In this document: positions 37,607 to 63,688 of the stretch, piece after piece
How positions within the stretch are numbered: position 1 is the stretch's first letter
How the letters are laid out: each line of letters opens with the position of its first letter
NCBI GenBank assembly: GCA_947172415.1
Contig: OX359194.1
Coordinates: 744,001-808,000 of the forward strand
Direction of reading: 5' to 3'
Length of the DNA: 64,000 nt
Source: Chondrosia reniformis
Taxonomy: Eukaryota > Porifera > Demospongiae > Chondrillida > Chondrillidae
Made by a program: the position numbers and the translations under genes
The notes under the pieces: generated by a model
The model's database searches: none
Told to the model about the DNA's origin: nothing
What the model saw: the letters and a program-made list of their open reading frames with translations, nothing else

Positions 37607-40600
37607 CTGTTAGATAGAAAACAAACACATTAACAGTATACAGAATAAGTGAATAATCACCAAAAGGTACCACACTGATGAGCCCAATGAGCTAGGGTTT
37701 AAAGGCTCTCTGTGTGCCACAAATAATGGATACAAGAGGTATTACAATGTATTGTATATATGTACTGATTGTTAATATAATAATATTATACGTATATGAG
37801 GCACAAGATTAGTACTTTCGTACATCAAATTCAAACTGAAATCCAGTTACTTCCTTGTCCTCTATGGTTGCTTCCAAGTCAGTGATCTTCCTTCTCAACT
37901 CATGGGCTGGTACAGCAGTCTCCCCACAGGTCAAGTAGTCATTGAGAGCATCATGGATAAACACATACTGGTCCTGTATTGAGACAAGAAAGCCATTAGA
38001 TCTCTCAGTGCAGGACGTACATACGTATATATAACAATGGTAATTACCTGATTTTGTACCATAAATGTTCTCCTAGTCCGACACTTTGTGACAAATTCAT
38101 AAATGTTCAGGGTATCCTCATCCTTCAATCTCTGTAACATTGCGTCTATAGTAATGTATGTACCGCTTCTACCAACTCCAGCACTAAGGAATTTATAATA
38201 CCATATATACACATTATTATATAATATTATTATCGGCTCTACCAACATAATTATGTATTTATTAGTTTTCTCATAAAAATCTGATTTTGTAAGAATTAGA
38301 CCACCTTTTATCAGCAGCCAAATATATGTGTTGCAAGGTTTCAGTAACATTAGAGTAGTATTGACTACTACTGTCTCATCTTTTGAAAGGATTATCTTTC
38401 GACTTTTAGGGCATCTAGTGAGGCAGTTTTGTTGTCTCTTCTTGGTTGTCACTTCTTGGTTGCCAGACTATTTAGAATGTCTTTAAGATGCTCTAAAAGT
38501 CAAAGATGATCCTTTCAAAAGATAAGTTCTACACAGTTAGAAGAAATTCTTATTCTATATATTACTACTTTCTCATTAATGTGATTGCTACAATGTATGT
38601 ATATATGGGTTCAGCTAACTTGCAGTGCACAATCAGAGGTGACTGACTGTTCTTGTATGCCTTTCTAACTTGCTTTATGAACCGGATCAAAGATGCAGGA
38701 TGTTGAGGTACTCCATGATCAGGCCATGCGCAATACATGTAATGTCTCATTACAAATGGTGTACCCTTTGCCACATACATCTATAAAGTATACATACGTA
38801 CGTAGAATTGATTTTAATCAAAACAACAGTTATCCTCTTGCACTTAGCTGAGTTCGAATACATTCAACAAAATGACATGTGTCACACTTTACTTACATTC
38901 TTAATTAACATTTCTCTGACTTCATAGTCAGCAAAGTATGAACACGACTTCACTTTGATGCAGAACCCTCTACCTGGTTCAAATACTTGCTCAACATCAT
39001 CTATCCAGTAGCGCTCACACTTTTTCTAAATACATATTAAATACAATGGTAGTTACAAGTGGAGGGTACAGAGGGAATTAAATTTAGTAATATCTTCTAA
39101 TTCTACTATACTTCTATACCTGCTTTGATGTTATTAGAACAAATGAAATGCTTGTATTACAAATACATATGTACGTACAATTATGAATATTCACGGCCAA
39201 TTCTATGCATAGATTAACCTTTCCCTTCTCCTGTGGTTGCGTCAACATGACAAGAACAGGAGGTCTGTGGTCCCATATCATCTGCCAGAAATCAGATATC
39301 GTATTTGGAATGGGACCTGTGGACAAGAGAAATATACAATATATTTACATATATCTATAGAGGGAGAAGTAAATGTGCATATCTGTACAGTACTTGTCAG
39401 TAGAGAAGCGGACTCAAATTGGACCAGGTCAAAAATAATTGAAACAAAATAGCTAGAGGCCTGGGGTATCTATTCAGACAAATACTGTATTATATGTATA
39501 TACGTACATGCAGACATAATGTGTAAAATTATCAGCCCTGAAGAGTTATATTTGTATAATCACACATGGGGCAGAAACTCACCCTGAGAAGCAATGTAGG
39601 CATTTGTCCTGTTGTAGCCCTACAAAATGTTGAAACCCATTGCGTATTATCAATGTATACCTACATGTATACTCAATTACATACAGATTGAATGTGTATT
39701 AAATATATATAATATGTACAAAGTCAAATATTGACCATATATATGTACATACACTCACATCAATGTAGGAAGCATTAATATAGTCACTTCCATTCTCATC
39801 AGGAACAGACAGCACTACTCTGGAATGGTCAACTGCATGGAATACAAGACTACAATCAAGACCCATCAGCTAGTGCTATACATATTGACCCTCCAATTAT
39901 TAACCTAATTATTAACAATTAGCTACCTATAGGACTGATAAATGCAAGTGATTCATCACAGCCAGAATAACAAAATGGATAGCACTAAGGTAGCTTTCTA
40001 TTATATAGTGCAATAGTACACATGCCATTATAAGTGTATACAGTACAATATTATGCGTATATACTGACAAGTGTCTTACATACATGTGTGTATGTTGATG
40101 TATCTGTTTTTCTGTTTGTTAGCTTTAGCAATACTATCTACTCCTTTTTGATCATTCTCTATAGTCTGGAAGGACGGAATAGATATATATATATATATAT
40201 ACAAAAAAATATATAAATATACTTCTGACAAGTTTGCATACATATAATATATACAAGTTACTTTAAGACAAATAAGTGGTATACAGACATCATTACATTA
40301 TATTCCCTTTCAAAACCACTGTTTTTATCCATTCTCATTTCTCTGACATGATTTGCCAATTGGGACTTGGACACAACTTTAGACAGATTTGCATACACTG
40401 CAGAAAGGGAATGTTCTACCTTAATTTAAAATTGGATTATATTGTAAGTTAAATTTAAACATATAAATTAAAAGGAATTCCAATATGATGCAAAAATTTC
40501 AAATAACGTGTAAATATGTATATACTCCATGCAAAATAAATTTCCTTCAAACTTAATTTGGCATCTTCAAATATTGCAATTTAAACATGTATATACGTAT

Positions 40601-43600: not shown

Positions 43601-46600
43601 CTCCAGTGTTAGATGGTGCTGTCCAAGTAACCATCAGTTGGTCACATGATCCAGATGGAGGAGATATCACGAGGTTAGTGGGAGGACCTGGAATTTGATA
43701 ATTATAAAATATAAGAGACTCATAATATATCAGCATTTACTAAGCATTTACATAAATTCCTACAATCTATATGTTTCACAATATTGTATAAACACTAATT
43801 ATTGTTATGTACAGGCATGGATAGGTAGCTATAGAGACATAGATATGACATATTTATAGAGAAATATTAGAGAAAGAAAGCTGAAATTATAAAATTTATG
43901 GGAAACTTTTTCACTTCTAAATCACGAAAAAATAGGGGAACTTTAAGAATCTAAAGCAGATCTTAAAGCATCAATATCATCATCATTGAACTCTGGATGA
44001 CACACCAGCTGTCTATGGCTCAATTCTCTTTTTAAGTGGCTAGGGGGAGACTCTGGTTCCCATCAAGCAAACTTTGGTTAGCTCATTGTGCTCTTCAGGG
44101 GACATGAGTGGGTTAATATCCAGAGTTTAGTGATATGATGACACTTAAAATGATTTAAAAGATGATGATAACGATGATTTTAATTCATAATACATATATA
44201 ATTTATACACAAGTTGCAAGTTATAACTTTTTGAATCACAAGATACTTTCCTAACCTGGATTTGGCATTCTCATACTGTAATTTCCTTGAACTCCAGCAC
44301 CAAGGATTTCAGCTGCTACCCAAACATAGTAGGTGGTACCTGATTGAAGTCCAGTCAGTGTAGTTGATGTAGCTGTAATTCCTGATCTCTTCATAGCATC
44401 AGATGGTGGATCTGTTGCAGTACCACTATCAGTTGAATATCTAACTACATAGCCTATAGCAGTTCCAGTTACTGCAGTCCATGAAACAGTCAAGGATGTT
44501 CCACTTTGAGTTAACATGATACCTTGTACTTGAGATGGTGGAAATATTTCAGGTACAGGAGGTGGAGTTTCTGTGTAAATGGTGATAATAATGATCATTT
44601 ACACTTTGCCTGCCTTATATGGGCATAAATAACAGCAGAATAGGTACAAACAAATTACAATTACAGTTTCTGAATATCTTTACATATATAATATTATTGT
44701 ACGTACCTAAGACAACTGGATATAATGTAGATATAGAGCTACTAAGATCCATTACACAGCTGTATGTTGTAGCATGAATTGGTTTGAATGATGAGATAAG
44801 TAGTTTCCTATCATGTCCTGATTTAGTAGAAATCTCTCCTTCAGTTGGTGTAACTCGGCTCCTAGGATCACCAGTGAACCAATCCTTCAATACATTAGTC
44901 CTTTGACATTCCAACTTTACAGGTTGACTGAGGGTAGGTGTTATAGTGATAGTAGTAATTGGATCATCAGTCCTTCCAACTGTTAAGGTGTTGGTTGCTG
45001 ATGGATTAACTATAGAATTTGAATTAATTATATATAGTGTATAATACAGTACAACATTAAATACGTAACATAATATATATATACATATATACTCAGTTGT
45101 TATGATGAGGTTTAACAGTCGATTGATTTTAAATCTTTACTCAGTTGCTAATATCAGTGTGGGTAACTCACCGATTGCAAGTACCACAGGATAGGTTGTC
45201 TTTGTCTGAGTATCACCACTTGAAGATACCAAACAAGTGTATGTTCCAGCATGACTTGTAGTGAATGAAGAGAAAGCCAATATCCTAGTAGGTCCACCAG
45301 TTGTACTTATTTCATTTGTAGTGGGTGCTACTTCACTTCCTGTAGTGTACCATTGTTTAGACCTTGTACCATTATCACACTGCAGCTCTACTGATTGATT
45401 AATGGTAGGTGTTACAGTGATGGTAGCAGTTTCATTAGGAGGATTCCCAACTCTAATAGTAGTTGCTTCAGATCTATTATCCTGCACTATAATAAAATAT
45501 GGAAATATCTGACTGTTTTTAGTTATTGATTGAGATACATATGACACCTACAGTAAAACCTTATTAACTGCTTATTTCAATCCATTTTTTAATTTACTAT
45601 ATTTCCTGGTTTTTAACTAAAATCTTTGCCTTGCTAAAAATGTAGTTGTCAACCTTTCAGACATCAGCACTTAATAATATGTTAAAGTTGAACAGGGGCC
45701 CAGGCAGCATTAGTTATATGTAGATATACGTACATCAGAAGAGCAGGAGTCATTCAAAATGTGTCAGCATACTTGCAAACCACAAATAAGCATGTTTATG
45801 TAAATATATAATTGTTTGTCAATGACCTATGAGTAGGTAATTAGATTAGCTAGAAGCCATGGTAAAGGTACAGGGCTTCCCAGTGAGTGTCAACTGGATT
45901 TATATCACACAATTGCATGTGTATGATAAATATTCTTTTTATTCTATACTGAGTACTAACAGGATATACAATAAAATCTCAGTCACTTGAGTATTACAGT
46001 CAGCTACTATATAGGTTTGTGGTCAACTTAATCTAATGGGTTACTCCTTGCTATTGACTATGTACATCATACATATCTTAAAGCTTCCCTTAAAAATAAT
46101 ATTGTGTACTAGAAGTATAATCCTATATATATATAGATGTTTGAGATTATAATACATCTGTAGTCACTAAGATTGGCATGTACGTGTATACATGTATATA
46201 AGTACAGTATATATAATATATAATTACTGACAATTACACCATGTATGTACGTATGTAGGTTGTATAGAAATTGTAGACATGGATTGTGTTGGATATAATA
46301 TTATCCTCCTACCATTTGGGCAGAAGCTTCCCCAAAAAACTTAGACTAAGTGCACATGTGATGAATCTGCCTAAACTATATAGCCATTTCACTTAATAAA
46401 ATAGTAATAATTACGTAAGTAATAAAGAATCCTCAATTGTTGACAAGTATCAAATGAATGTACACTTTCACAGGAAATATATAGATATAACAGCAAATGC
46501 AACAACATACGATATATTGCTTGGCAATTAAATATAATGCTCTCTTCATTAGACTAACCAAAGCTTACTGCAACCAAAAGACAGAGCAGAAGACGATTGC

Positions 46601-47073: not shown

Positions 47074-49435
47074 CTACACAACTTTAAAATTTGCATAAGT
47101 ATCAAAGGAGTCAAGGTAGGCTTGAAGCATCTCATAGCATAACTTGTACTGCTCCTACATTGAAAGGAGAGCCAATGTAAATTGACAGTTTTTGTTTTGA
47201 TGGAAAGAGAAAAAAATTCTTTGCAATAATTAATCAGAATATACTGATAATGTCTCCTTGTTATGTATATTGTGGCTATAAACTCACCACAGTGGAGACC
47301 ATGTTTGGTCTTTGAACTCTCATGGATTTGACAGTCTGAAATATGTCAACTTCTCCTTCAATTTTGACTCTCTCAATCTCAGACATAGCAGTAATGAAGA
47401 CACCAGTACGACCCATACCATCACTAGAATAATAGATTAATAACAATGCTTCAATTAGTTGAAAAAGTACAATTTCACAAATTGGCTCGTAAAAGTCTAA
47501 ATTTACCATTTTGTGTATGTATTTCGCTAATTATGCAGAACTCACTCGCACATGGCAATGACAGGTTTCTCAGATCCACACTGTTTCTTCTCTACGTCTC
47601 CCATCATCTTCATTAATGGAGTTATCTGAACAGCACCGTCAGCCCTCCAGTCACTTGAGTGAAACAAGGTCAACTCCAGAGGCTTAGTTTCAGGCTTGAA
47701 AACAAGGAATTGGAAAGAAATATAAAAGATCACAAATAATAAAACAAACAGGTACAACTCCAAAAATTGTGTTATTAGCTCCTCTGTCAATACCTTTCTC
47801 TTGTCTGAAACATTTAGAGTGTAGGTAGTGTAACCTTGATTATCTTCAGTATACATCAGGTCTACTTTGAGAAAGCTGTACTCGGCTGTCCTAATCTTTC
47901 CACTTGGCCAAAATTGTACACAAGTTTCCTTAGAGAAAAAGATGAAAGGTGAGAGTGGAAAAGAAATGTTAACCATGAATGCTCCATAAAGGGTATTTAG
48001 AAGAAGGTATGTACATAATGAATTAAAATGTTCACTGAGTAGAAGAACACCATATTTGGACATTTCAAGGCATAAGGACAGGAAAAGGGTAAATATGAAT
48101 TATTCATAATTTATTGCTTGTGACACTTGGTCGAGTAACTGGTATATCGTTTGGCACATAACTACTAGGTTAACATTAAATTGGAGTCCCAGAAATACAG
48201 TCAAAAAAATAGAAAAAACAGGGCTGCATGCAGAACTTGGGACCACAGGGGGTAAAATGAAATTTTTCAAAATTTAGGGGTCAATGGTATGAGGGTGTCG
48301 AAGTAATTTAGGGGTTCCCAAAAGTCTAGGAAAAACAGCCCTGGAAAAACAGTAGTGTTAAAGACAATTTACAGGTAAGGAAGTTATGTAAATACAGCAA
48401 ATGGATGGGTTACCATTAAATGCAATTAGATGCTCCAGAAGATCTGTGTGTATCCCAATGTGGTCTACTTAACAACAGCTTACTACAAGCTCCACCCATT
48501 TGTCTAAAAGCACGCATTACACAGCTAGCTCATTAGCTAATTACGTAATAATGTAAACTACTCATTACCCGCTTGTTCTCCTTAAAATCACACAGCAGCA
48601 CAATCACAGAAGTCTTGAACTGCCAGACCAGCTCCCATAAGTCATCTCTAGTGTGCATCAGTGGAGACTGAGCAGCTATAAAGGCTCGTGCACTGGAGTA
48701 ACTCTATAGAGAATCAAAAAATGGTTTGTATTTGTTATATTTTAGCAATTGGTTATATAATATTATTATAATGGGAGGAGTCAAGTTGATGAGTGGTTGA
48801 TAAACCAATTAGTTAGATGATAAACATAGCCTTCCCACCCTATATTATGTGGGAGGGGTCACCTTATCTAGACAGCAACAAACAAATGCCAACTTACATT
48901 GACGAATGAGGCATTCACATAGTCATTTCCATTTTCTGCTGACCTTCCAGAAATGTGAAGATGGTTCAAGGAATCTGAAGAGAAATGAACATGTGTTAAA
49001 GAAATGCCGATAGGAGAAAGTAAGTCCCTATATTTGTTTATATATAAGTTCTTATATGTTCAGGTGAGTTAGTGTAGTTGTGTGTTAAATAAAGAAATTG
49101 GGATTGCATATATACATGCTGTACATAAGGTAGTTGATAATTTGCTAAGCATTAGCACAGATAGCTATAACAGATTTGGATGTTTTGATTTGGAGGTCGC
49201 TGAGAGGACCAAAAATGTCCAAATCTGTAACAACAATCTGTTGGTAATGTTCACCAATCACTGACTACCATACAAATACTCCTTCATGCCTACATATCAT
49301 GATATGGACATAAAAGATAAATACTCTCCACTCACAGGGGAACTTATCTTGGTATCTGTTCTTCCTGGCTACTGGACTCTTCATGGAATACTGTGAATCT
49401 TCTTTGCATACGCTCTTTGATACACTGTTTAAGGT
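47074..49435 (-). other. Gene 5 phosphatase domain D2
   Basis: Exons at 49336-49435, 48898-48974, 48569-48703, 47794-47928, 47546-47694, 47288-47423 and 47074-47154. P-loop [11 protein letters not shown], acid loop [10 protein letters not shown]. It ends in [18 protein letters not shown] and a short tail. Confidence 0.87.
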
Positions 49436-52400
49436 CTGTTATCAATAAAATATGTACATATATATTGGTATATGGATGGACATCATATTTAAATACATGC
49501 ATGTGGATCACTGATGAAGGGTGGAATTCCCAGAAACGGCTGTCTGATCCAGTGGAGAAGAAGATGAAAGAAAGAAAAAGAAGGAAGAGAAGACTCCTGT
49601 ATCTTCATCCAAAGTTCTCTTCAGGTTTAGTTCCCCTATAGGCTTTTTACAGAATAGGCACAGCATGTAGGAAAATGGTGTATTAGATTTTTCATGCAGT
49701 TACTACGGCAAAACACTATCATACCACATGTATGTATTATTATTTGTCTCAGGTTGTGGTTTCTATAAACATACATTGGTCCAGATAATGAAGATTAAGC
49801 AATTAAAATAAGGTTAGAATATTCAATATATAAATACAGGAGTCTATTACTGTATACATTAACTTATACAAAGCATAATTATGCAATGCTCATCAACATT
49901 AAACAAACAGTTTAGTATGTGCTTACATTAAATTCAGACTGAAATCCAGTCATTTTCTTGTCCTGTACAGATGCTTCCAAGTCAGTGATCTTCCTCCTCA
50001 ACTCATGGGCTGGTACGGCAGTCTCACCACAGGTCAAGTAGTCGTTGAGAGCATCATGGATAAACACATACTGCTCCTGTATTGAGATATATAAATTATA
50101 TATAGAATATCTTTCCTTGAACCAAATTATATACAGCTATAATAATGTACGTATGTATTGTATATAAGAAAACATACAACAATAAATATGCACCGCATCA
50201 TAAAAGCAATCAGAATGTACCACTAAACAAAGAATTTGTCATACTCTGTCAAATATTTACATATTCCTACAAAAAGTAATGCTTATAGAATCCGTCAATG
50301 TCTCTCAGTGTTAGGATTTTACAGCTAGTAAGTGCTTGGGAGTGACAAGCTACCTTTTTGAACTGCTAATGGTCAAGCAGCTGAACACATATGTGGGTTT
50401 TAATACGTACATTAACCACAATTAGTATTCACACTAATGAGTGGTGATTCTCTTTATCAGAACAAGCTGATAATCCTAGCCCATTTCCAGTTAGAGCTGT
50501 TATCTCAATCAATTGGTCACTTGTCAACATAAACCACAATATACATGACACTGCTATATGTACCTGATTTTGCACCATAAACGTCCTCTTAGTCCGGCAT
50601 TGGGTAACAAACTCATAAATGTTGAGATCAGTTCTTTCCTTCAACCTCAGCAGCATTGTATCAATAGTGATGAATGTACCGGTACGACCTACTCCAGCAC
50701 TTCAGGAAAAAAATAGAAAAAACTTATGAAAGGATACTATTGTACATTATGCAACTTAACTGTAATTTTGCTACATATAGATAAGTTACGTAATTGTTGG
50801 TGTAGTGATCTAAACATCCTTTAAGAACAGATCCAGAGAAAAGAGTAACAATTAGCAATACTACCTATTTAAACAGTAAACATAGTAATGAAATGATGTT
50901 GCTGCTTTAATGATAGCCCTCAAGTATTTTCACTATAAAGATAAAGTTTCAGTGATCAAATGTGGGCAATAATTTTAAACAAATACTGTAAAGGTCTCAG
51001 TATCTTGCAGAGAACACCTACTGTACGTATATAGCTAGTTATTTGTAATGTTTCCATATTGCAATCACTGTGACACCTACAGACATATGAACTAACCTGC
51101 AGTGCACAATCAGAGGTGACTGACTGTTATGATATGCCTTTCTAACTTGCTTTGCAAATCGTACCAGAGATGAGGGATGTTGAGGTACTCCATGATCAGG
51201 CCATCCAGTGTACAGGAAGTGTTTCAAGGTAAATGGCTTGCTGTTTGCCTCAGACTATTGAATATAATTTCAGTAAAATTAAATATCCTGTATTTTCTCA
51301 TATTATATGAATCCTCAGTGTTTCTGTATACATTTACTGTACGTATATACCTATTAGTACATTGAATTATGCTTGAATTGAACGCACCTTTTTAACGAGG
51401 ATTTCCCTCACTTCATAGTCAGCAAAGAAGTGGTATGATCTCACCAATATGGAGAACCCTCTACCTGGTTCAAACACTTGTTCTGCATCATCTATCCAGT
51501 AACGCTCACACTTTTTCTACAGAAATAATAACAAACAAAGTTTTACCTAATGACAGATACGTATGTAGGAAAGCTTATAGAAAAACGGAGAAAGGTGTAT
51601 GTACGTACATTATTCAAGGCTAACTCAATTTTAATTAACAGGAACTTACCCTTCCCTTCTCCTCTGGTTGTGTCAGCATGACAAGAACAGGAGGTCTGTG
51701 GTCCCATATCATCTGCCAGAAATCAGATATTGAATTAGGAGTGGGACCTGAAGACAAATTAGAAAACCAATCTTCATTAAGACAAAGGTGCATATGTATA
51801 TAAGTACCTACGTACATATGTACGTATAAACGTATAAAATGATTATGTACGTATACTAAGATAGGCAAATGCACATAAACACAATTACACCAGATAGGTC
51901 AAGATTCTAGTACACATAAATACTCACCCTGAGAGGCAATGTAGGCATTCTTTCTCTTATAGCCCTAAAAAGAGGAAAACCCTCTAATTTAAGTATATAA
52001 ATGAATGTTTGTTTAACTTCAGTGAGGTATTTGAATAAAAAAGCTATTATGTATACATACACATTCTCCCTAAACCAAAAGTATGCATTAGATGGGACAC
52101 TAATGAGGGACTGTACGACCACATTAGCAAGTGAGCATCCATGGGCTCCTAAACAGTATAATTGCTGCACTTTTAAATCTTACCTCAAAGTGATGTCTTA
52201 TATACATAGATCAATTAATGCTAAACAGTTACGTATGTGTATTTGCTCATTGAAATGAGAAGATAAAGCTTTCAAAACAAACTGACCTTCTGTGGCTAAT
52301 ACATGTCTATATGTGTGGTATATCACCGATATGTATAGAGACATTGAAGATAACAGTATAAGAAGACTTACATCAATGTAGGAAGCATTGATATAGTCAC

Positions 52401-55400
52401 TTCCATTCTCATCAGGAGCAGACAGTATTACTCTGGAATGGTCAACTGGATGGAATAGAGAAAAATTGAGTTGCCATGCAATATTCACAACTACACATAC
52501 TGTTTAAAAAAGAAATAAATATTCATTTATTGACTGCAAAATGCACATTTTACAAATTAAAAAATGAACACAATCTTCATAAGGCTTATCAAAGTAATAA
52601 AGCTTTAGTAGAGCTGAATTAAATGGGTCTTAAAGGAGACCTAATTAGACTATCTCAACTGTAGCCATGTATGTACGTACGTACGTACGTATGTACACTC
52701 AATCCTCCCTTATCCGGGCACCTTGGGACCAGGTACTGTCTGTAACTCAGATATGCCCGGAGTTCAGAAGACCTATCACAAGTATAGAGTATAGCTGCTT
52801 TATTTTGTAAAGTATACATATTGAGTAAGCTACGACACTTGCTGTGTAAGGAAAATGAATAATGAATTTCGAAATCGACAGCATACTTCACCACCAAATT
52901 TGTTAACTATTATTCACATTCTCCACAACAAACAAGATCGGCAAACACGTTTGGCTTCAAAAAAGGCCATGAACGGGACACGTACGCAACTGCTGCCATC
53001 ACCATTTTGATAGCTTATTGACTCAGCACCAGCTTACATACTGCCCGGTAGAGGGACATGCCCGTATCTGGGGCGTCCGGATAAGGGAGGATTGAGTGTG
53101 CTTCTAAGCTATAGTCATTGGCCATGTTGGGAAACACAAAAGTGTCTTACATGTGTGAATGTTGAGATATCTGTTCTTAGTTCTGTGAGCTTTAGCAATA
53201 GTCTCCTTTCCTTTTGGATCATTTTGAATTGTCTGAAACAACAGAAGTGTTATACGTACGTATATATTCTACATTCTAGCACAGTGCTTGCCATATAAAT
53301 TGCACTACATTTGTTACAAGGGTATCTACATATATATATATATATATGAACTGTTAAGTTAATCATTGACTTTGGCTAGTGGACAAACTAATAAAGTGAA
53401 TGGTACGGAAATCATTACATTGTATTCCTTCTCAAAACCACTGTCTCTTTCCATTCTCATTTCTCTGACATGAGCTGCAAATTGGGACTTTGAAATGGCT
53501 TTAGACAGATTGGCATACACTGCAGAATGTCAACCAATGAATATCATTAAAATTGGTTCAATTGTAAAAGTAATACGTACGTACATCTCATTACAATTGT
53601 AGAAGAATATCATTACCTATGTCATGAACATACGTACACATACGTACGTCAATACACTTAGTGATTGTTCAACTTTCTGTATACATGTATGCATTATACC
53701 TAATAACATAGCACATACGTACATGGTTCATCTACAGCTCCATTAGTGATGTCAATCTTCTTTTGAATGTCTACCGCACTGCCAAAGTCATCTGAATCTG
53801 TCAGATTGGTTTTCGGAGCTGCCAGATAATTGTCTGATTTGGGTTTTGCCACAGGAGAGGCCTCTTTGTGGGATGGTGCATAATAGTCACTTTTCTTTTC
53901 CTTTTTCCTTCGCCTAAAACAGTAAAAAGTCAATAACCAAAATATTTACTAACGACAATAAGATCATAACATTGCAAGAAATGACTAAATGATAGGAAAT
54001 GTTGCACAACCTCACAAGGTAGTCATATACCATATAGAGGATAATGCGGTAAGAGAATTCTCATGCATATATGAAGAGCTGAACTATCAAACATTCTCAA
54101 TAGATGCATACATACGTACCTTACAAATATCACAATGATGATCACAATTGCTAATGCCAGTAAAACTAATACCACAATGACCACTACAATGGCAATTATA
54201 GTTCCAGGGTTATCTGGTCCTGGTGAAGATGATGGTGATACTGAACTAATAGGTACTGTAGTAAGAAACAGTGTCGTGACATCAGTAATAATAGTATACA
54301 GCAAATCAAATGGACATTTTGAAACTAAATAAATTTACAGAGTACATGCAAGTACAAAAGACAATAAACTGTATCACAAAAAATAAATGTAAATTGCATA
54401 CTAATCCTAAAAAAGATTTACATATAAACCAAAATAGAGCTAAGTTTACATTCTACATACGTATATTACACTATATTAATAGACAAAAAAGCAAAATTGT
54501 ACTATTAAAGTATAATTATATGTATATAACTATGCACAACCACCAAACCAAAGGAAGCTTTAGTATACAACTATAATACAAGTATATTCAGATTGCTTTT
54601 CTATTTACCTGATCCACTGACTGGACCTCTTAAATTCCCACCACCAGTAACAACTCCAATAGCTATCATATTAGTCTGAGATGAGTCTAATCCATTGATC
54701 ACTATACTTGATTCTGTAGTGTTAGCTGTTGGTTCTATTTCTCTCTTAACAGGTCCACTACTATCATTGAGGTATATATAGTACACTGGAAATCCTCTTG
54801 CTTCATGTAGAGTTAGTGGTTCCCAACTGATAGTGAGTGAGTTACCACTCCATACAGTCTCAATTGTAGAAGCATCAACTGATTTATCTGGAACTAATTT
54901 AAATAAATTCACAATAAAAATGCTAAAATCTGAAAAACTGTCAAGTACGTACATAATTATCCATTGAGTATATATTGCAGAAATTTCACTGATTCATTTA
55001 GAGCTATTACTAAGATTGTAGAACATAATAATATTATAGATGTATATGTGTATACTTCACACATATGTGGCACTGTTATAATAATTTGATTTGATTACTT
55101 TCATGCTGAAATATTTTCAAGGTCTAGGCAATTCTGTAATTACATAATTTTTTATTAAAAGCTTTCACGTGAGAAATATTCGCTGTTTCAGCCAATCATT
55201 AATATAATATTTTAAAAACACATTAAACAACACAGATTTCCTGAATTACCAAAATAGTGTATATAAGGCCCCTAGATTTAGCGTAGAGAGCCAAGGATTC
55301 CCAGAAGATCAAGATAAAGAAAAAGAAATTCCCAGGATCACTGATGACGGGTGGAATTCTCAGAAACAGCTGTCTGACCTAGTGGAGAAGAAGATGAAAG

Positions 55401-58400
55401 AAAGGAAAAGAAGAAAGGAAACTATTTTCATCCAAAGCTCTCTCCAGGTCTAGTTCCCTATAGGCTTTTTACAGAATAGGCATATAGCATGTAGGAAAAT
55501 GGTATCTTAGATTTTTCATATGTATTGTAACACAAGGATTCACAGAAGATCAAGATAAAGAAAAAGACAAAGACTCCCAGGATCACTGATGAAGGGTGGA
55601 ATTCCCAGAAACGGCTGTCTGACCCAGTGGAGAAGAAGATGAAAGAAGAGAAAAGAAGGAAGAAAAGACTCCTGTATCTTCATCTAAAGCTCTCTTTAGG
55701 TTTAGTTCCCCTATAGGCTCTTTTTACAGAATAGGCATATAGCATGTAGGAAAATGGTATCTTAGATTTTTCATATTGTAATACCACAAAACATAAATAT
55801 ACAAATTATTACTATTCATATGAAATTAAGAACCTTTTTCATTTGTAAAGAAAATAAGGTCTTTTTCTTTTCCATTTCCACCAGTAGTACCAGCTGTCAC
55901 AGTAACGTAATATGGTATTCCCGGTTCTAAAACATGTTGACAGAAAGTATACGTATATAGCATAAACATTAACTTCAAACATTTAAAAAATGAAGTTAGA
56001 AGAAAGGATGGCAGTGCTTGCATTGATATCTTATGACTGAAATGCACATTTACAGGTAGAAGCTGTAAGCTACGTACGTTTCTTAGCATTAAGAAGAGGA
56101 ATTGAATAATTACTGTATAAATAACTTAATCTAATGTTTATGAAACAGTGAATAATTGCTCCTCTATCTTGAATTTTATTTTGATTTCCAAATGATGTTT
56201 TGGGAGCTTAAAAGGCTAATACACAATTTGTTATTGATTTTAAGGTGACAATCAATAATACACTGAATAGGGTGGCCATGATTTTGTGTCAACCCTACTT
56301 AAATCATATGTTGTTACGATCATTACTTAAAGTATTGATTCCTGTTTCATTATTCTCAGTAGTCATTGCTTGACCAGTTGTATTCAGTACACCATGATTG
56401 ATAGTATATGTAACACTTGTGTATCCATCTGATGGTTCTGGAGGATCCCAAGAGATTGTCACAGAAGTATCAGTACTGGCAGTCTTCATCAAATTCTTTA
56501 CTGGACCAGGTACTACGTATACACATACATATACATGTATATGTTACATATGTATGGCCATGGATAAAGGAAAACTGATGGCAAAAATAAAAGACAACAA
56601 ATTGCATACCTTCCTCTAATGTAGTACTCATTCCATTCAATACTGGTCCTGTTCCATTGATATTAACAGCTGCTATGTTGAATGTATATTCAGTAATTGG
56701 CTTCAAATCTCTAAATGTATATCTCTGATCATCAGTAGTATTGAATGTTGGATTAGGTACTGAGTAGTTGAGAGTTGTCAAGCTTCCAGTCTCTCCCCAT
56801 TCAATTATGTAGTTAGTGATGATTCCATTTCTCTCCCATAAATCTGGTGCACTCCATTGAACAGTTATAAATGTTATATTTGGAATGGAACTGAAGTTGT
56901 TAGGTTGACCAGTTGGAGCTGTACGTATAATACATGTTACATATGTATAATGTAATTGATTGGAGTACATTAGGTGTTTCACTTGTCACTTTTTACTAAC
57001 AAAACAAAACTATTATAAACTTGCTAAATACAATTTACATTTCAACTATACAATATTATCCCCCTTTATTCTGATCGCAAGTAAAACTTGCATTCTGATA
57101 ACACAATACTTATGCAACTTATAGTTTACGTTTTCCAAGAGTTCTTGCTGTAATAATGCTATATGATCCCTCATTTCCACCAGTCTCACTGAGTCTGACA
57201 AACACTCTGTATTCTCTGAATGAGTTACAGTTACCAAACCTATGCCATGTTGAGCTGGCAACCTCGCTAGGATCTCTAATTGGTTTCCCCTCAGTAGATG
57301 AATCAGTAGCTTCTGCATAAGGTGCATCCACAGTGTAACCATCAGGTGGAGCATCCCAAGTCACGTTGATCATACTTGATGTTACTTCTGATACTCTGAG
57401 ATTCTGGACTACAATAAAATACAAAGATTAATAGATCTCATTGGGTTTCACAACAACATTTATATCACACTTCAATAAAAATGAGCAATATCTGGTTTAC
57501 AGTTAAAGTTTATGTAGTAAAAGGGCTATAATGATGTATGGTTTAGTGCACCTGATAAAATTAATCAAAATATAATAGTAAGTGTCAATAAAGAAAGTCA
57601 TTCCAGATCGTGCACTAAAACCAATAACAATTAATACATACTGTAAGCTTAGCCTTCTAAATCTTACTATCAGGAATTGTTGTAAATATCACCATGGTAG
57701 CATCAGGTCCAGTTCCATTACTATTAATAGCAGCTACAGTAAAACTGTATGTCACTCCAGTCATCAGATTATCCAATGATGATCGATTTACTGCTCCAAC
57801 TGTTCTTCTCATCTGATTTGATGAATCATTACTTAACTGGTACTTTATCAAATATCCAGTAATTACTCCATTTTGGTCCTTCTCAGCTGGTGGATCCCAT
57901 CTTAAAATGGCTGACTTACTGGATGGTTCTGCTCTTAGATTAAGAGGAGGTCCACCTGGTTCTGTATAAAAGATAAAAGAAGTAAACAATGATATCATAA
58001 CTAATACTGCAAATTACAACAAAATAAACTCTCTCATGTTTCCCTGTAATATACAGTAAGGATGTAACAGCTGTGATCTGCTTGTCACTGCGATCATGTA
58101 TGTATATGTGATAATGCAGTAAAAGTCAGCATCCAATTACAAACAGTATAAATATGCACAAACGCATAACAACACACTCACTTGCTGAAGGCATTCTTAT
58201 AGTGTCCATGTTAGAGTCACAAGAATCTACTCCATTTGAAGATGTACATTCAACAGTGTAAGTAACATAAGGACTTAAACCATCCACTGTAAACTGTAAC
58301 ACTGTATCAGTTACAGTCTTTGGAGACGAACCATTCACAGTTGTAGATATAGTACACTTGTAAGTAAGAGAAGATGATCTAGCTGGTGCAGTGAGTGTGA

Positions 58401-61400: not shown

Positions 61401-63688
61401 TGCAAGAGTGCAAACATCATTATTGGTAGAGTGAATCTAAGTGTTGAGCACTGTACTAATGATTGATATACGTACCTACGTAGATAATGTAAAACTATAA
61501 TTGTCTGTTTATATACACAAATATCCTTTTCTATAATATACAGTTATCAAAAATATGACATTTCCATTTACAAGATTAATTACAAGATATATTTCTAACC
61601 TGAATTTTGCATTCTCATACTGTAAGGTCCTTGAACTCCAGCACCAAGGATTTCAGCTGCTACCCAAACATAGTAGGTGGTACCTGATTGAAGTCCAGTC
61701 AGTGTAGTTGATGTAGCTGTAATTCCTGATATCTTCATAGCATCAGATGGTGGATCTGTTTCAGTACCACTATCAGTTGAATACCCAACTACATAGCCTA
61801 TTGCATACTTTGGATCAGTTCCAGTTACTGCAGTCCATGAAACATTCAAGGATGTTCCACTTCCAGTTAACATGACACCTTGTACTTGAGATGGTGGAGT
61901 TATTTCAGGCACAGGAGGTGGAGTTTCTGTGTAAATGGAAAATGATAAAAATGCTGTTTTGGCTTGTTATATAACATAATCAATCAAACTGGAACTGATA
62001 AACAATTGAACTGTACACATAATAATATGCTCCACTAATAGACTAAGAGACTTTATATAATATGCTCCCGCAAGACTTCTGCTTTGGCTTATCATTTACA
62101 CTTTGTCTGCCTTATATGGGCATAAATATCAAACAAAATACCATAACTAATGAGTTGCCATTAATTAAATGGTAACCTTTTGACAGCCAGTGAGAACAGT
62201 TATAATGCACATGCAGTGTATAATAAAAACGATTTAATATATTATTTGTAAAGGCAGTGTTTTGTTTACATTGTACAAATGTCAATAAATAAAGTCACAA
62301 TGGGAAAGTAAGCATCTTATCTTAGCCATTCATAGTAATTGAATTGTCTACTTTTACAATGTTAACTATGATTATTCACTCAAAAAGACAAAGAAGAAAG
62401 GATCACTGCTGGAGGGTGGAATTCCCTGTAACAGCTGTCTGGCACAGTGAAGAAAGGAAGAAGAGACCTAACTGTATCCCTTAATCTCTATAAGTTTGTC
62501 CTAAGTCCTTAGTCTAAGAAAATTGTATATTTCAGTTCTCTTTATGTTTCCTCATATTACGTAGGTATAATAACAATAGCTTTAGGAATATGGTGTATTA
62601 GATAATTCACTAATTATTAAAATGTCACACATGCTATGGTTAATGAAACTTCAAAGAAGCATTATAGTATTCTCATTTCATTTAAAAAATTGTTGTATCA
62701 CTCACCTAATGTTACTGGATAAGTACTAACTGGATTTGAATTAACAGTACATGTGTATCCTTTAGCATGAGATGTACTGAATGATGAGATAGTGATTGTT
62801 CTAACGTATGTGGAAGGTATATTAGAAAGGTATCCAGGAGTGTCAGTCACTGCAGTTCCACTAGTGAACCAGTTCTTTCCTACATCAGGCCCATCACATT
62901 CCAACTTTACAGGTTGACTGAGGGTAGGTGTTATAGTGATAGGAGTAGTTGGATCATCAGTCCTTCCAACTCTAATTGTGTTGATAGCTGATGGATTAAC
63001 TACAGAATTTATCAACAGAGACAATAATTTAGTCAGTTCCATTAAATCAAGACAATTAATCTTAATACTAAAACTGTAATATAATATAAAGAACGGCAGA
63101 AAAGGAAACAAACTTGAGCTTACTGAAAGCTGCCATTCAAAAATACAGATAAATAAAATGTTATTGTGTATGAATCCGTATTATATACAAATATAAATAT
63201 ATGAGACGACCAGTAGTTAGAATGAAAACAACAGATGAAGACTAATATTTAAATTCCTAATGACTGCTACTATATAAGATGGTTCTACATTCTAATACAC
63301 AAGCATGTACAGACACAAATTAACACTAATGACACCAGTTTACAACAAATTATTGTACGATTATCACATAATGACTCACCAAGTACCACAGGGTAGGTTG
63401 TCTTTGTCTGAGTATCACCAACAGAAGATACCAAACAAGTGTATGTTCCAGCATGACTTGGAGTGAATGAAGAGAAAGCCAATATCCTAGTATTTCCAGA
63501 AGATGTACTTATTTCATTTTGAGTGGCTTCTACTACACTTCCTGTAGTGTACCATCGTTTACCTACACCATCCCCACTACACTGCAGCTCTACTGATTGA
63601 CCAATGGTAGGTGTTACAGTAGTGGTAGTAGTGTGAAAAGGAGAAGTCGCTACTATAATAGTAGTTGTTTGAGACTTGGTTATCTGAA
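47074..63688 (-). CDS. RPTP gene 5: receptor tyrosine phosphatase, at least 2 Ig + 9 FN3 (5' end outside window)
   Basis: Longest member of the array. The visible exons sum to 5306 nt, about 1768 residues: two Ig, nine FN3, TM, juxtamembrane, D1 and D2. The stop is at 47074-47076. The signal exon, and possibly more Ig exons, lie right of the window: the first visible Ig exon begins at a phase-1 acceptor (63688), and just upstream is a retroelement fragment. D1 is intact ([28 protein letters not shown]). D2 has VIAMC and SDGMGRTG with a WRAD acid loop. One FN3 domain is split by an intron, unlike all the others. Introns hold four copies of a hammerhead-bearing repeat, a pogo-like element and two FN3 relics. 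The nine FN3 domains give an ectodomain closer to the classic LAR layout, but the paralogues are more like each other than like any named gene. Confidence 0.88.
49505..49700 (+). ncRNA. Hammerhead-ribozyme-bearing repeat, copy A
   Basis: The plus strand at 49505-49550 fits a type I hammerhead. GGATCA pairs perfectly with TGATCC (stem I). The core CTGATGA is at 49511-49517. GGG and CCC form stem II. GAAA is at 49533-49536. A two-base-pair stem III (AC/GU) closes a GGCT loop. The cleavage triplet GTC is at 49542-49544. One weakness is an A/A mismatch at the base of stem II. The rest of the repeat is shared with copies at 55292, 55533 and 62382. It lies in a gene 5 intron, antisense to the gene. 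Confidence 0.65.
49927..52445 (-). other. Gene 5 phosphatase domain D1
   Basis: Exons at 52372-52445, 51928-51964 (37-nt microexon), 51650-51747, 51388-51516, 51097-51254, 50564-50699 and 49927-50076. All catalytic motifs are present: [69 protein letters not shown]. Confidence 0.9.
52668..52695. repeat. ACGT simple repeat
   Basis: A run of GTAC/ACGT units directly abutting the left end of the pogo-like element. Confidence 0.8.
52696..53098. mobile_element. Non-autonomous DNA transposon, pogo-like termini
   Basis: Ends are a perfect 22-bp inverted repeat starting CACTCAATCCTCCCTTATCC, enclosing about 400 bp without a transposase frame. The CCTCnnTTATCCGG pattern resembles pogo/Tigger termini. 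A TA precedes the left end; the right flank no longer shows TA. It lies in the gene 5 intron between D1 and juxtamembrane exons. Confidence 0.65.
53151..54255 (-). other. Gene 5 TM and juxtamembrane exons
   Basis: Exons at 54120-54255 (Ser/Pro-rich stalk, then [21 protein letters not shown]), 53723-53913, 53419-53519 and 53151-53232. The juxtamembrane exon has a basic start (RRRKKEKK), two Tyr-containing motifs (DYYAP, NYLAAP) and an acidic [10 protein letters not shown]. Confidence 0.85.
55292..55532 (+). ncRNA. Hammerhead-bearing repeat, copy B (first unit of tandem dimer)
   Basis: A 241-bp unit with the hammerhead core at 55335-55380: GGATCA, CTGATGA, GAAAC, GTC, TGACCT. Stem II is weakened (CGGG against TCTC). 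It is followed directly by copy C. Confidence 0.6.
55533..55789 (+). ncRNA. Hammerhead-bearing repeat, copy C (second unit of tandem dimer)
   Basis: Core at 55580-55625 with CTGATGA, GGG/CCC stem II, GAAAC, GTC and a stem I of GGATCA against TGACCC (one mismatch). Equivalent bases in B and C are about 245 bp apart. Two tandem units each carrying a type I hammerhead match the layout described for metazoan retrozymes. Confidence 0.62.
58578..58648 (-). pseudogene. FN3 exon relic in gene 5 (second)
   Basis: The same truncated FN3 segment as at 42880-42951 in gene 4, with matching flanks, so it predates the split of genes 4 and 5 or was copied between them. Confidence 0.6.
60075..60159 (-). pseudogene. 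FN3 exon relic in gene 5
   Basis: Minus strand reads [19 protein letters not shown], a copy of the start of the neighbouring FN3 exon (59746-60036), then jumps to [10 protein letters not shown] and a stop. A tandem exon duplication followed by an internal deletion would explain it. Confidence 0.65.
60160..61599. other. Gene 5 intron between first and second FN3 exons
   Basis: 1.4 kb of AT-rich sequence. I see no exon, mobile element or RNA gene in it. Confidence 0.5.
62382..62610 (+). repeat. Decayed hammerhead-bearing repeat, copy D
   Basis: Same repeat family, but the core reads CTGCTGG instead of CTGATGA and GTAAC instead of GAAAC. It would not be an active ribozyme. Confidence 0.6.
62706..63688 (-). 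other. Gene 5 Ig exons (two visible domains)
   Basis: Exons at 63380-63688 and 62706-62999, phase 1-1, with VELQC/KRWYTTG/GTYTCL and VKLECD/KNWFTSG/KGYTCTV signatures. Confidence 0.87.

Follow-up and report, generated by a model that had tools for sequence, protein, structure and literature searches.

Genomic copies of a short interspersed repeat in the sponge Chondrosia reniformis begin, far more often than at control positions, exactly where a hammerhead motif within the repeat is predicted to cut. This pile-up of insertion 5' ends, rather than the single copy of the motif at position 49505 of the window (the whole 64,000-nucleotide stretch of DNA analyzed), is the finding worth following. 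Judging from the sequences, it is reasonably probable (roughly 0.6) that a degenerate minimal type I hammerhead cuts, or did cut, the RNA of this repeat and that some of the products are reverse-transcribed. The repeat is denoted family A, and a second hammerhead-bearing element family B, both labels having been coined in this analysis.

The motif described in the earlier note is present letter for letter at 49505–49550 on the plus strand, by direct reading. The 5' side of stem I, GGATCA (49505–49510), leads into the core CTGATGA (49511–49517), the A that forms the 5' partner of a non-pairing A/A (49518) and the GGG of stem II (49519–49521). The loop TGGAATT then connects to the CCC of stem II (49529–49531), followed by the 3' partner of the A/A (49532), the core GAAAC (49533–49537), GGCT, GTC (49542–49544) and the 3' side of stem I, TGATCC (49545–49550). 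Stems I, II and III are 6, 3 and 2 bp long, respectively, and the predicted cut falls between 49544 and 49545. The extra T-A pair proposed for stem I is formed by 49504 and 49551, and the stems and the A/A at the base of stem II, which is position 10.1–11.1, are as had been described. In hammerheads, the 10.1–11.1 pair closes stem II, is usually G-C, and is important. No internal loop is visible in stem I of the family-A motif. The core (CUGAUGA, GAAA and UH) and the open stem I topology are those of a type I hammerhead, whereas position 10.1–11.1 is unpaired in the 49505 copy.

The pattern CTGATGA-N(6-30)-GAAAC-N(3-12)-GTC occurs three times in the window, compared to a mean of 0.04 in 100 shuffles, and the three matches are copies of one repeat. 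When a good motif was defined as one with an intact core and at least five contiguous stem I pairs, three stem II pairs and one stem III pair, the window contained one and 117 Mb of first-order Markov sequence trained on the window contained none. By these counts, the motif is very unlikely to be a chance occurrence.

The 49505 motif is not a lone intronic ribozyme, but the 5' end of a shortened family-A copy. On the evidence of its copies, family A is a short non-coding retroposon of ~240–330 nt, present in thousands of dispersed copies. A search of the 117-Mb host genome (15 contigs) found 1,831 motifs with exact core and spacing (917 and 914 by strand; none with the reversed pattern as a control) and 3,116 matches with ≤2 mismatches to a 21-nt 3' seed (1549 and 1567; control 0). 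When 49440–49620 was used as a query, 39 other places listed matched from query position 65 or 66, ending at 181 (38 places) or 179 (one place). Since these matches start at 49504/49505, the repeat begins at stem I in the 49505 copy. Family-A copies share the 3' end GATTTTT, usually followed by CAT, while their 5' ends are variable, the copies being shortened at different points. Length-changing indels also occur among them.

In the window, the 49505 copy extends over 49505–49692 (plus strand), ends in a TTTTT run, and is flanked by CATGT (49500–49504) and CATGC (49693–49697), a possible imperfect short target-site duplication. Two further plus-strand copies form a tandem pair at 55294–55535 (motif at 55335–55380) and 55535–55780 (motif at 55580–55625, with an A.C mismatch in stem I), with a motif spacing of 245 and a TATA-box-like TATATAA at 55260–55266, upstream of the first unit. 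A degenerate fragment comprising the motif region is found at 62399–62454 on the same strand (82% over 56 nt; 7.8 bits at 62400–62443 in the covariance model described below). The window pair (55341/55586) was the only direct tandem among 107 motifs examined from overlapping loci, and the genome-wide matches listed include one more pair on the same strand, separated by 191 bp. Long target-site duplications were considered as a rule for the family and rejected: one copy (L008) has a clear 17-bp flanking duplication, identified by eye, and elsewhere there are mostly short CATNN-type matches. These short flank matches had a mean of 2.52, compared to 1.83 when the partners were shuffled (at most 2.33 in any shuffle), in 48 entries that include two duplicated pairs and copies continuing upstream.

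Long copies contain a TATA box. In all ten promoter-selected loci, TATATAAGG was followed by the family-A unit, and TATATAA was present in each of the ten copies read, several of which have a damaged core; one (L157) has an internal deletion and ends early. The 5' ends were mapped in 77 distinct copies, derived from 90 of 100 exact 3'-seed places among the matches listed, all on contig C1. Within this sample, 22 copies start at reference positions 87–99, 27–39 nt after the TATA box, half of them (11) at position 90 (GCCAAGG). A peak of starts ≈30 nt downstream of a TATA box fits an RNA start, which suggests that the 5' ends of the insertions are able to report RNA ends. Only two of the 77 copies begin exactly at the cut site, and 14 starts are scattered within reference positions 219–258. 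A (ACTAGTACATACA)-like minisatellite was observed downstream of full-length family-A copies at five loci (L148, L150, L152, L155 and L156), and may represent either a tail or a target.

In a first sample, two copies began exactly at the base after GTC. Starts at the predicted cut site were then counted genome-wide, a junction being scored when the flank differed from the element at each of the three bases preceding the point tested. There were 88 such matches at the cut site, compared to 1, 3 and 4 at control points displaced by −3, +3 and +6 nt. At two other points where the element has a TG, there were 3 (+8 nt) and 15 (−4 nt, by a looser two-base test). The suffixes used in the junction tests are equally common (52–54 occurrences in 110 sampled loci), and the control counts, being raw totals, are upper bounds. 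The 88 matches include nine minisatellite entries on contig C2, five entries with TGT, apparently owing to a one-base deletion, and some near-duplicates. We opened 41 of them (40 chosen, plus L089), and found 29 independent junctions with other flanks, 11 with element-derived flanks (10 identified by script, L178 by eye) and one duplicate (L185 of L184, by eye). The script reported L183 and L203 as a pair as well; L203 is among those excluded. The independent junctions comprise 15 that start with TGACCC and 14 with TGGCCC. Compared to the worst control, scaled to 11.25, the Poisson probability of 29 junctions is 7e-6. The flank ends in CA in 17 of the 29 junctions and otherwise in 12, two of which (L187 and L206) lie in a minisatellite that also occurs beside other family-A copies. 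With CATG-like targets and a CA flank, the exact end is ambiguous by 2–3 nt. The nine C2 entries, at G000:C2:756961-757401, are spaced mostly at multiples of 25 bp, and this repeat is apparently a minisatellite derived from the family-A segment just past the cut site.

These observations are consistent with the following scheme, in which the motif is the ribozyme segment of the non-coding retroposon family A. Transcription would start ≈89 nt upstream of the cut, and part of the RNA would be cut after GTC by the hammerhead, acting either in cis or between two molecules that dimerize by means of ACAGCUGU, the self-complementary sequence of stem III. Some of the 5'-OH products would then be reverse-transcribed and inserted at CATG-like sites. 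That self-cleavage products were retrotransposed repeatedly, so that the genomic 5' ends record cutting in vivo by a degenerate hammerhead, is a more tentative proposition, to which we give slightly less than even odds.

The most serious competing explanation, though an unlikely one, is that the hammerhead is an inactive relic, and that starts at TGRYCC arise from microhomology between the CATG target and a TG in the cDNA during 5' joining. The 17 CA flanks and the CATNN-type matches at the ends of other copies (2.52 vs. 1.83 shuffled) would be expected in this case, and an inactive ribozyme would agree with the A/A found in 76 of 82 copies and the A.C mismatch found in most. Microhomology may indeed add to the peak at the cut site. 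However, it leaves unexplained why there are far fewer junctions at the two other TG steps tested, where the counts were 3 and, with the looser pattern, 15, compared to 88. Furthermore, the 12 junctions with non-CA flanks exceed the raw totals of 1, 3 and 4 at the non-TG control points. Alternatively, a copy or subfamily without the upstream segment might have captured an outside promoter, giving transcripts that start at TGRYCC without any action of a ribozyme. A single transcribed shortened source of this kind could seed many copies with unrelated flanks, but the same start is shared by the 15 TGACCC and the 14 TGGCCC junctions. Capture would thus have been needed twice, in two sequence classes and exactly at the predicted cut, which makes this explanation improbable.

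A chance likeness of the repeat to a hammerhead is less probable still. The lack of an Rfam match and the non-pairing closing A/A speak for it, but it has to contend with the absence of equally good motifs from the Markov sequence, the highest covariance-model score in 40 kb, a loop III that in many copies is that of the canonical hammerheads of the genome, and the pile-up of insertion ends at the cut site itself. Finally, the segment could have been preserved for the sake of an encoded lysine-rich peptide, since stop-to-stop frames of 61, 81 and 106 amino acids cover it in the three window copies. This idea is the most remote of all and was not supported: the third codon position is not the most variable (0.028, 0.044 and 0.037 for positions 1–3), and the copies differ by length-changing indels. 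Cutting by a degenerate hammerhead is the reading that we prefer.

Pairing was surveyed in 82 family-A copies with an exact core and a 15-nt spacer. All three pairs of stem II are kept in 76 copies, and position 10.1–11.1 is A/A in 76 and A-T in 3. Stem I has all six pairs in 10 copies and five of six in 62; it is weakest at the fourth position, which is paired in only 21 of 82. The commonest stem I is GGATCA/TGACCC, with an A.C mismatch (48/82), while GGATCA/TGATCC, as in the 49505 copy, is found in seven. More diverged copies, which their divergence suggests are older, vary around GGGTCA/TGGCCC and have exactly this sequence in two cases. The core columns varied less than shifted windows (0.019 vs. 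0.036), but 10% of the shifts were as low, and the difference was not significant.

When folded in the hammerhead form, the 49505 motif had an energy of −6.9 kcal/mol, compared to −2.2 for the commonest type, −8.3 for a composite of the diverged type and −9.4 for family B. For the 49505 motif, the diverged-type composite and family B, the lowest-energy dimer consisted of a double hammerhead whose stem III was 8 bp long, whereas for the commonest type neither the monomer nor the dimer minimum was a hammerhead. In the monomer minima of the other types, including family B, stems I and II were kept and stem III was replaced. The minimum-energy fold of 49505–49706 contained no hammerhead (z = +1.52), and the monomer fold of 51 nt was uninformative (z = 0.07). 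Folds that lack a hammerhead count against cutting, as do the frequent mismatches and the non-significant core conservation. The family-A ribozyme would work like a minimal type I hammerhead, probably a weak one, and perhaps as a dimer. Dimer cleavage has reportedly been found for the minimal type I hammerhead class, going by the title of a 2017 study by Lunse et al.

Of the two findings that the earlier note had named as jointly refuting, the lack of a match to the hammerhead covariance model did occur; the other was a lack of cleavage in vitro. No hammerhead was found with Rfam in the whole window, including the three family-A copies, at the gathering score, nor at E ≤ 10 in 451 bases around the 49505 copy or in 20 diverged family-A copies. 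We also built a covariance model from 14 canonical hammerheads of the same genome and applied it, unfiltered, to 40 kb of the 64-kb window. The family-A copies in the window were ranked 1–3 in these 40 kb, with 24.1 bits for the 49505 copy, and 21.2 and 20.3 bits for the motifs at 55335 and 55580, respectively. The reading as a type I hammerhead is thus supported in part: by the architecture, by the starts at the cut site and by the top score in the genome-derived model, but not by Rfam. Membership in the class is yes by core and topology, and no by Rfam score or closing pair. From its sequence, the 49505 motif has the architecture of a type I hammerhead, and probably descends from one.

A search of this genome with RF00163 found 65 matches among 73 scored of 11,921 candidates, 51 of them over the cut-off. 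Many of the loci opened were tandem or head-to-head copies of the 354-bp family B, which has the same core as family A. Unlike family A, it has a 5-bp, G-C closed stem II and matches Rfam Hammerhead_1 above the cut-off. All 14 aligned canonical motifs have AGCT as loop III. Of the 82 family-A copies, 24 share this loop and 50 have GGCT instead; among the 20 diverged copies, AGCT is found in 13. The GAAACAGCTGTC of family B also recurs in many family-A copies. There are two hammerhead lineages in this genome, and we infer that the family-A ribozyme descends from the canonical ones, or is related to them, and has been weakened. That the two families share an ancestor as whole elements was not supported: comparison with one family-B locus (L042) yielded only a 13-nt core match and an 11-nt match with an E-value of 0.37.

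Family A resembles both the canonical retrozymes and the Penelope-like elements, and fails the tested definitions of both. Penelope-like elements and Terminons, as described in excerpts of PMC7761336 and PMC11167929, have minimal hammerheads that share with family A the type I topology, a very short or missing helix III, no visible loop–loop contact and thousands of dispersed copies. Family A differs from this class as described there in its 2-bp stem III with a closed loop, its A/A at 10.1–11.1, and its short (~240–330-nt), non-coding carrier with a TATA box. It lacks an ORF with reverse transcriptase and GIY-YIG domains between pseudo-LTRs, for which the copies read, at ~330 nt or less, have no room; it may be a non-autonomous Penelope-like derivative. 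For the Anolis element, an excerpt of PMC11167929 states that no RNA-seq reads begin or end at the cut site, whereas in family A genomic insertions begin there. The metazoan non-LTR retrozymes, going by excerpts of PMC7229834, share with family A a unit of ~245 bp, a type I hammerhead, low GC and no LTR seen, and the one tandem pair in the window is a further likeness. In contrast to those descriptions, the family-A copies examined are mostly single, many are 5'-shortened, and the ribozyme is non-canonical. The unit size fits the 150–450 bp of retrozymes, but tandem units with canonical hammerheads were not found. According to excerpts of PMC6155905, the Schistosoma Sm-alpha element is another short retroelement that is non-autonomous and contains a type I hammerhead; its ribozyme is described there as very fast, which sets it apart from family A.

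Among the matches listed in a literature search of titles and abstract openings, we found neither family A nor a report of hammerhead cut sites serving as insertion ends. When the 5' ends of insertions accumulate at a predicted cut, sequence alone would provide a record of cutting, and the same test could be applied to any genome that harbors elements of this type. Here, such a record would suggest that a motif missed by Rfam is active in vivo. If this is true, a retroposon's minimal hammerhead is functional in cells, and the 5'-OH product of a hammerhead can serve as a template for insertion.

The 49505 copy itself had been assigned to an intron of "gene 5". The position was correct, but the motif is antisense to the gene and is part of an interspersed repeat. 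The host gene encodes a receptor-type protein tyrosine phosphatase, part of which spans 47276–52503 on the minus strand. Y_phosphatase was found in three of the six frames scanned on the minus strand (47276–47530, 50429–50701 and 51039–51254), which lie to either side of the motif. The two minus-strand frames nearest the motif had no Pfam match, and further exon-like frames were seen by eye on this strand. Since the gene is on the minus strand, its pre-mRNA holds the antisense of the motif; as the copy also lacks the TATA part, no transcript with the motif in ribozyme form is evident. The copy is probably inert, and is most likely a fossil that has lost its promoter and lies antisense to the host gene, though its own stem I is fully paired.

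Other hammerhead-related sequences were observed in the window and elsewhere in the genome. A degenerate canonical-type hammerhead with a lengthened stem II and an altered GAAA is located at 37669–37715 on the plus strand (17.5 bits in our model; 29-nt match to L010). The region 43926–44141 contains two oppositely oriented pieces left over from the 354-bp family-B element; the right one retains AGCTGTC|TATGGC, but not the 5' part of its ribozyme. At L043, L047, L050 and L051, family-B hammerhead elements form head-to-head inverted pairs, an arrangement known from Penelope-like elements.
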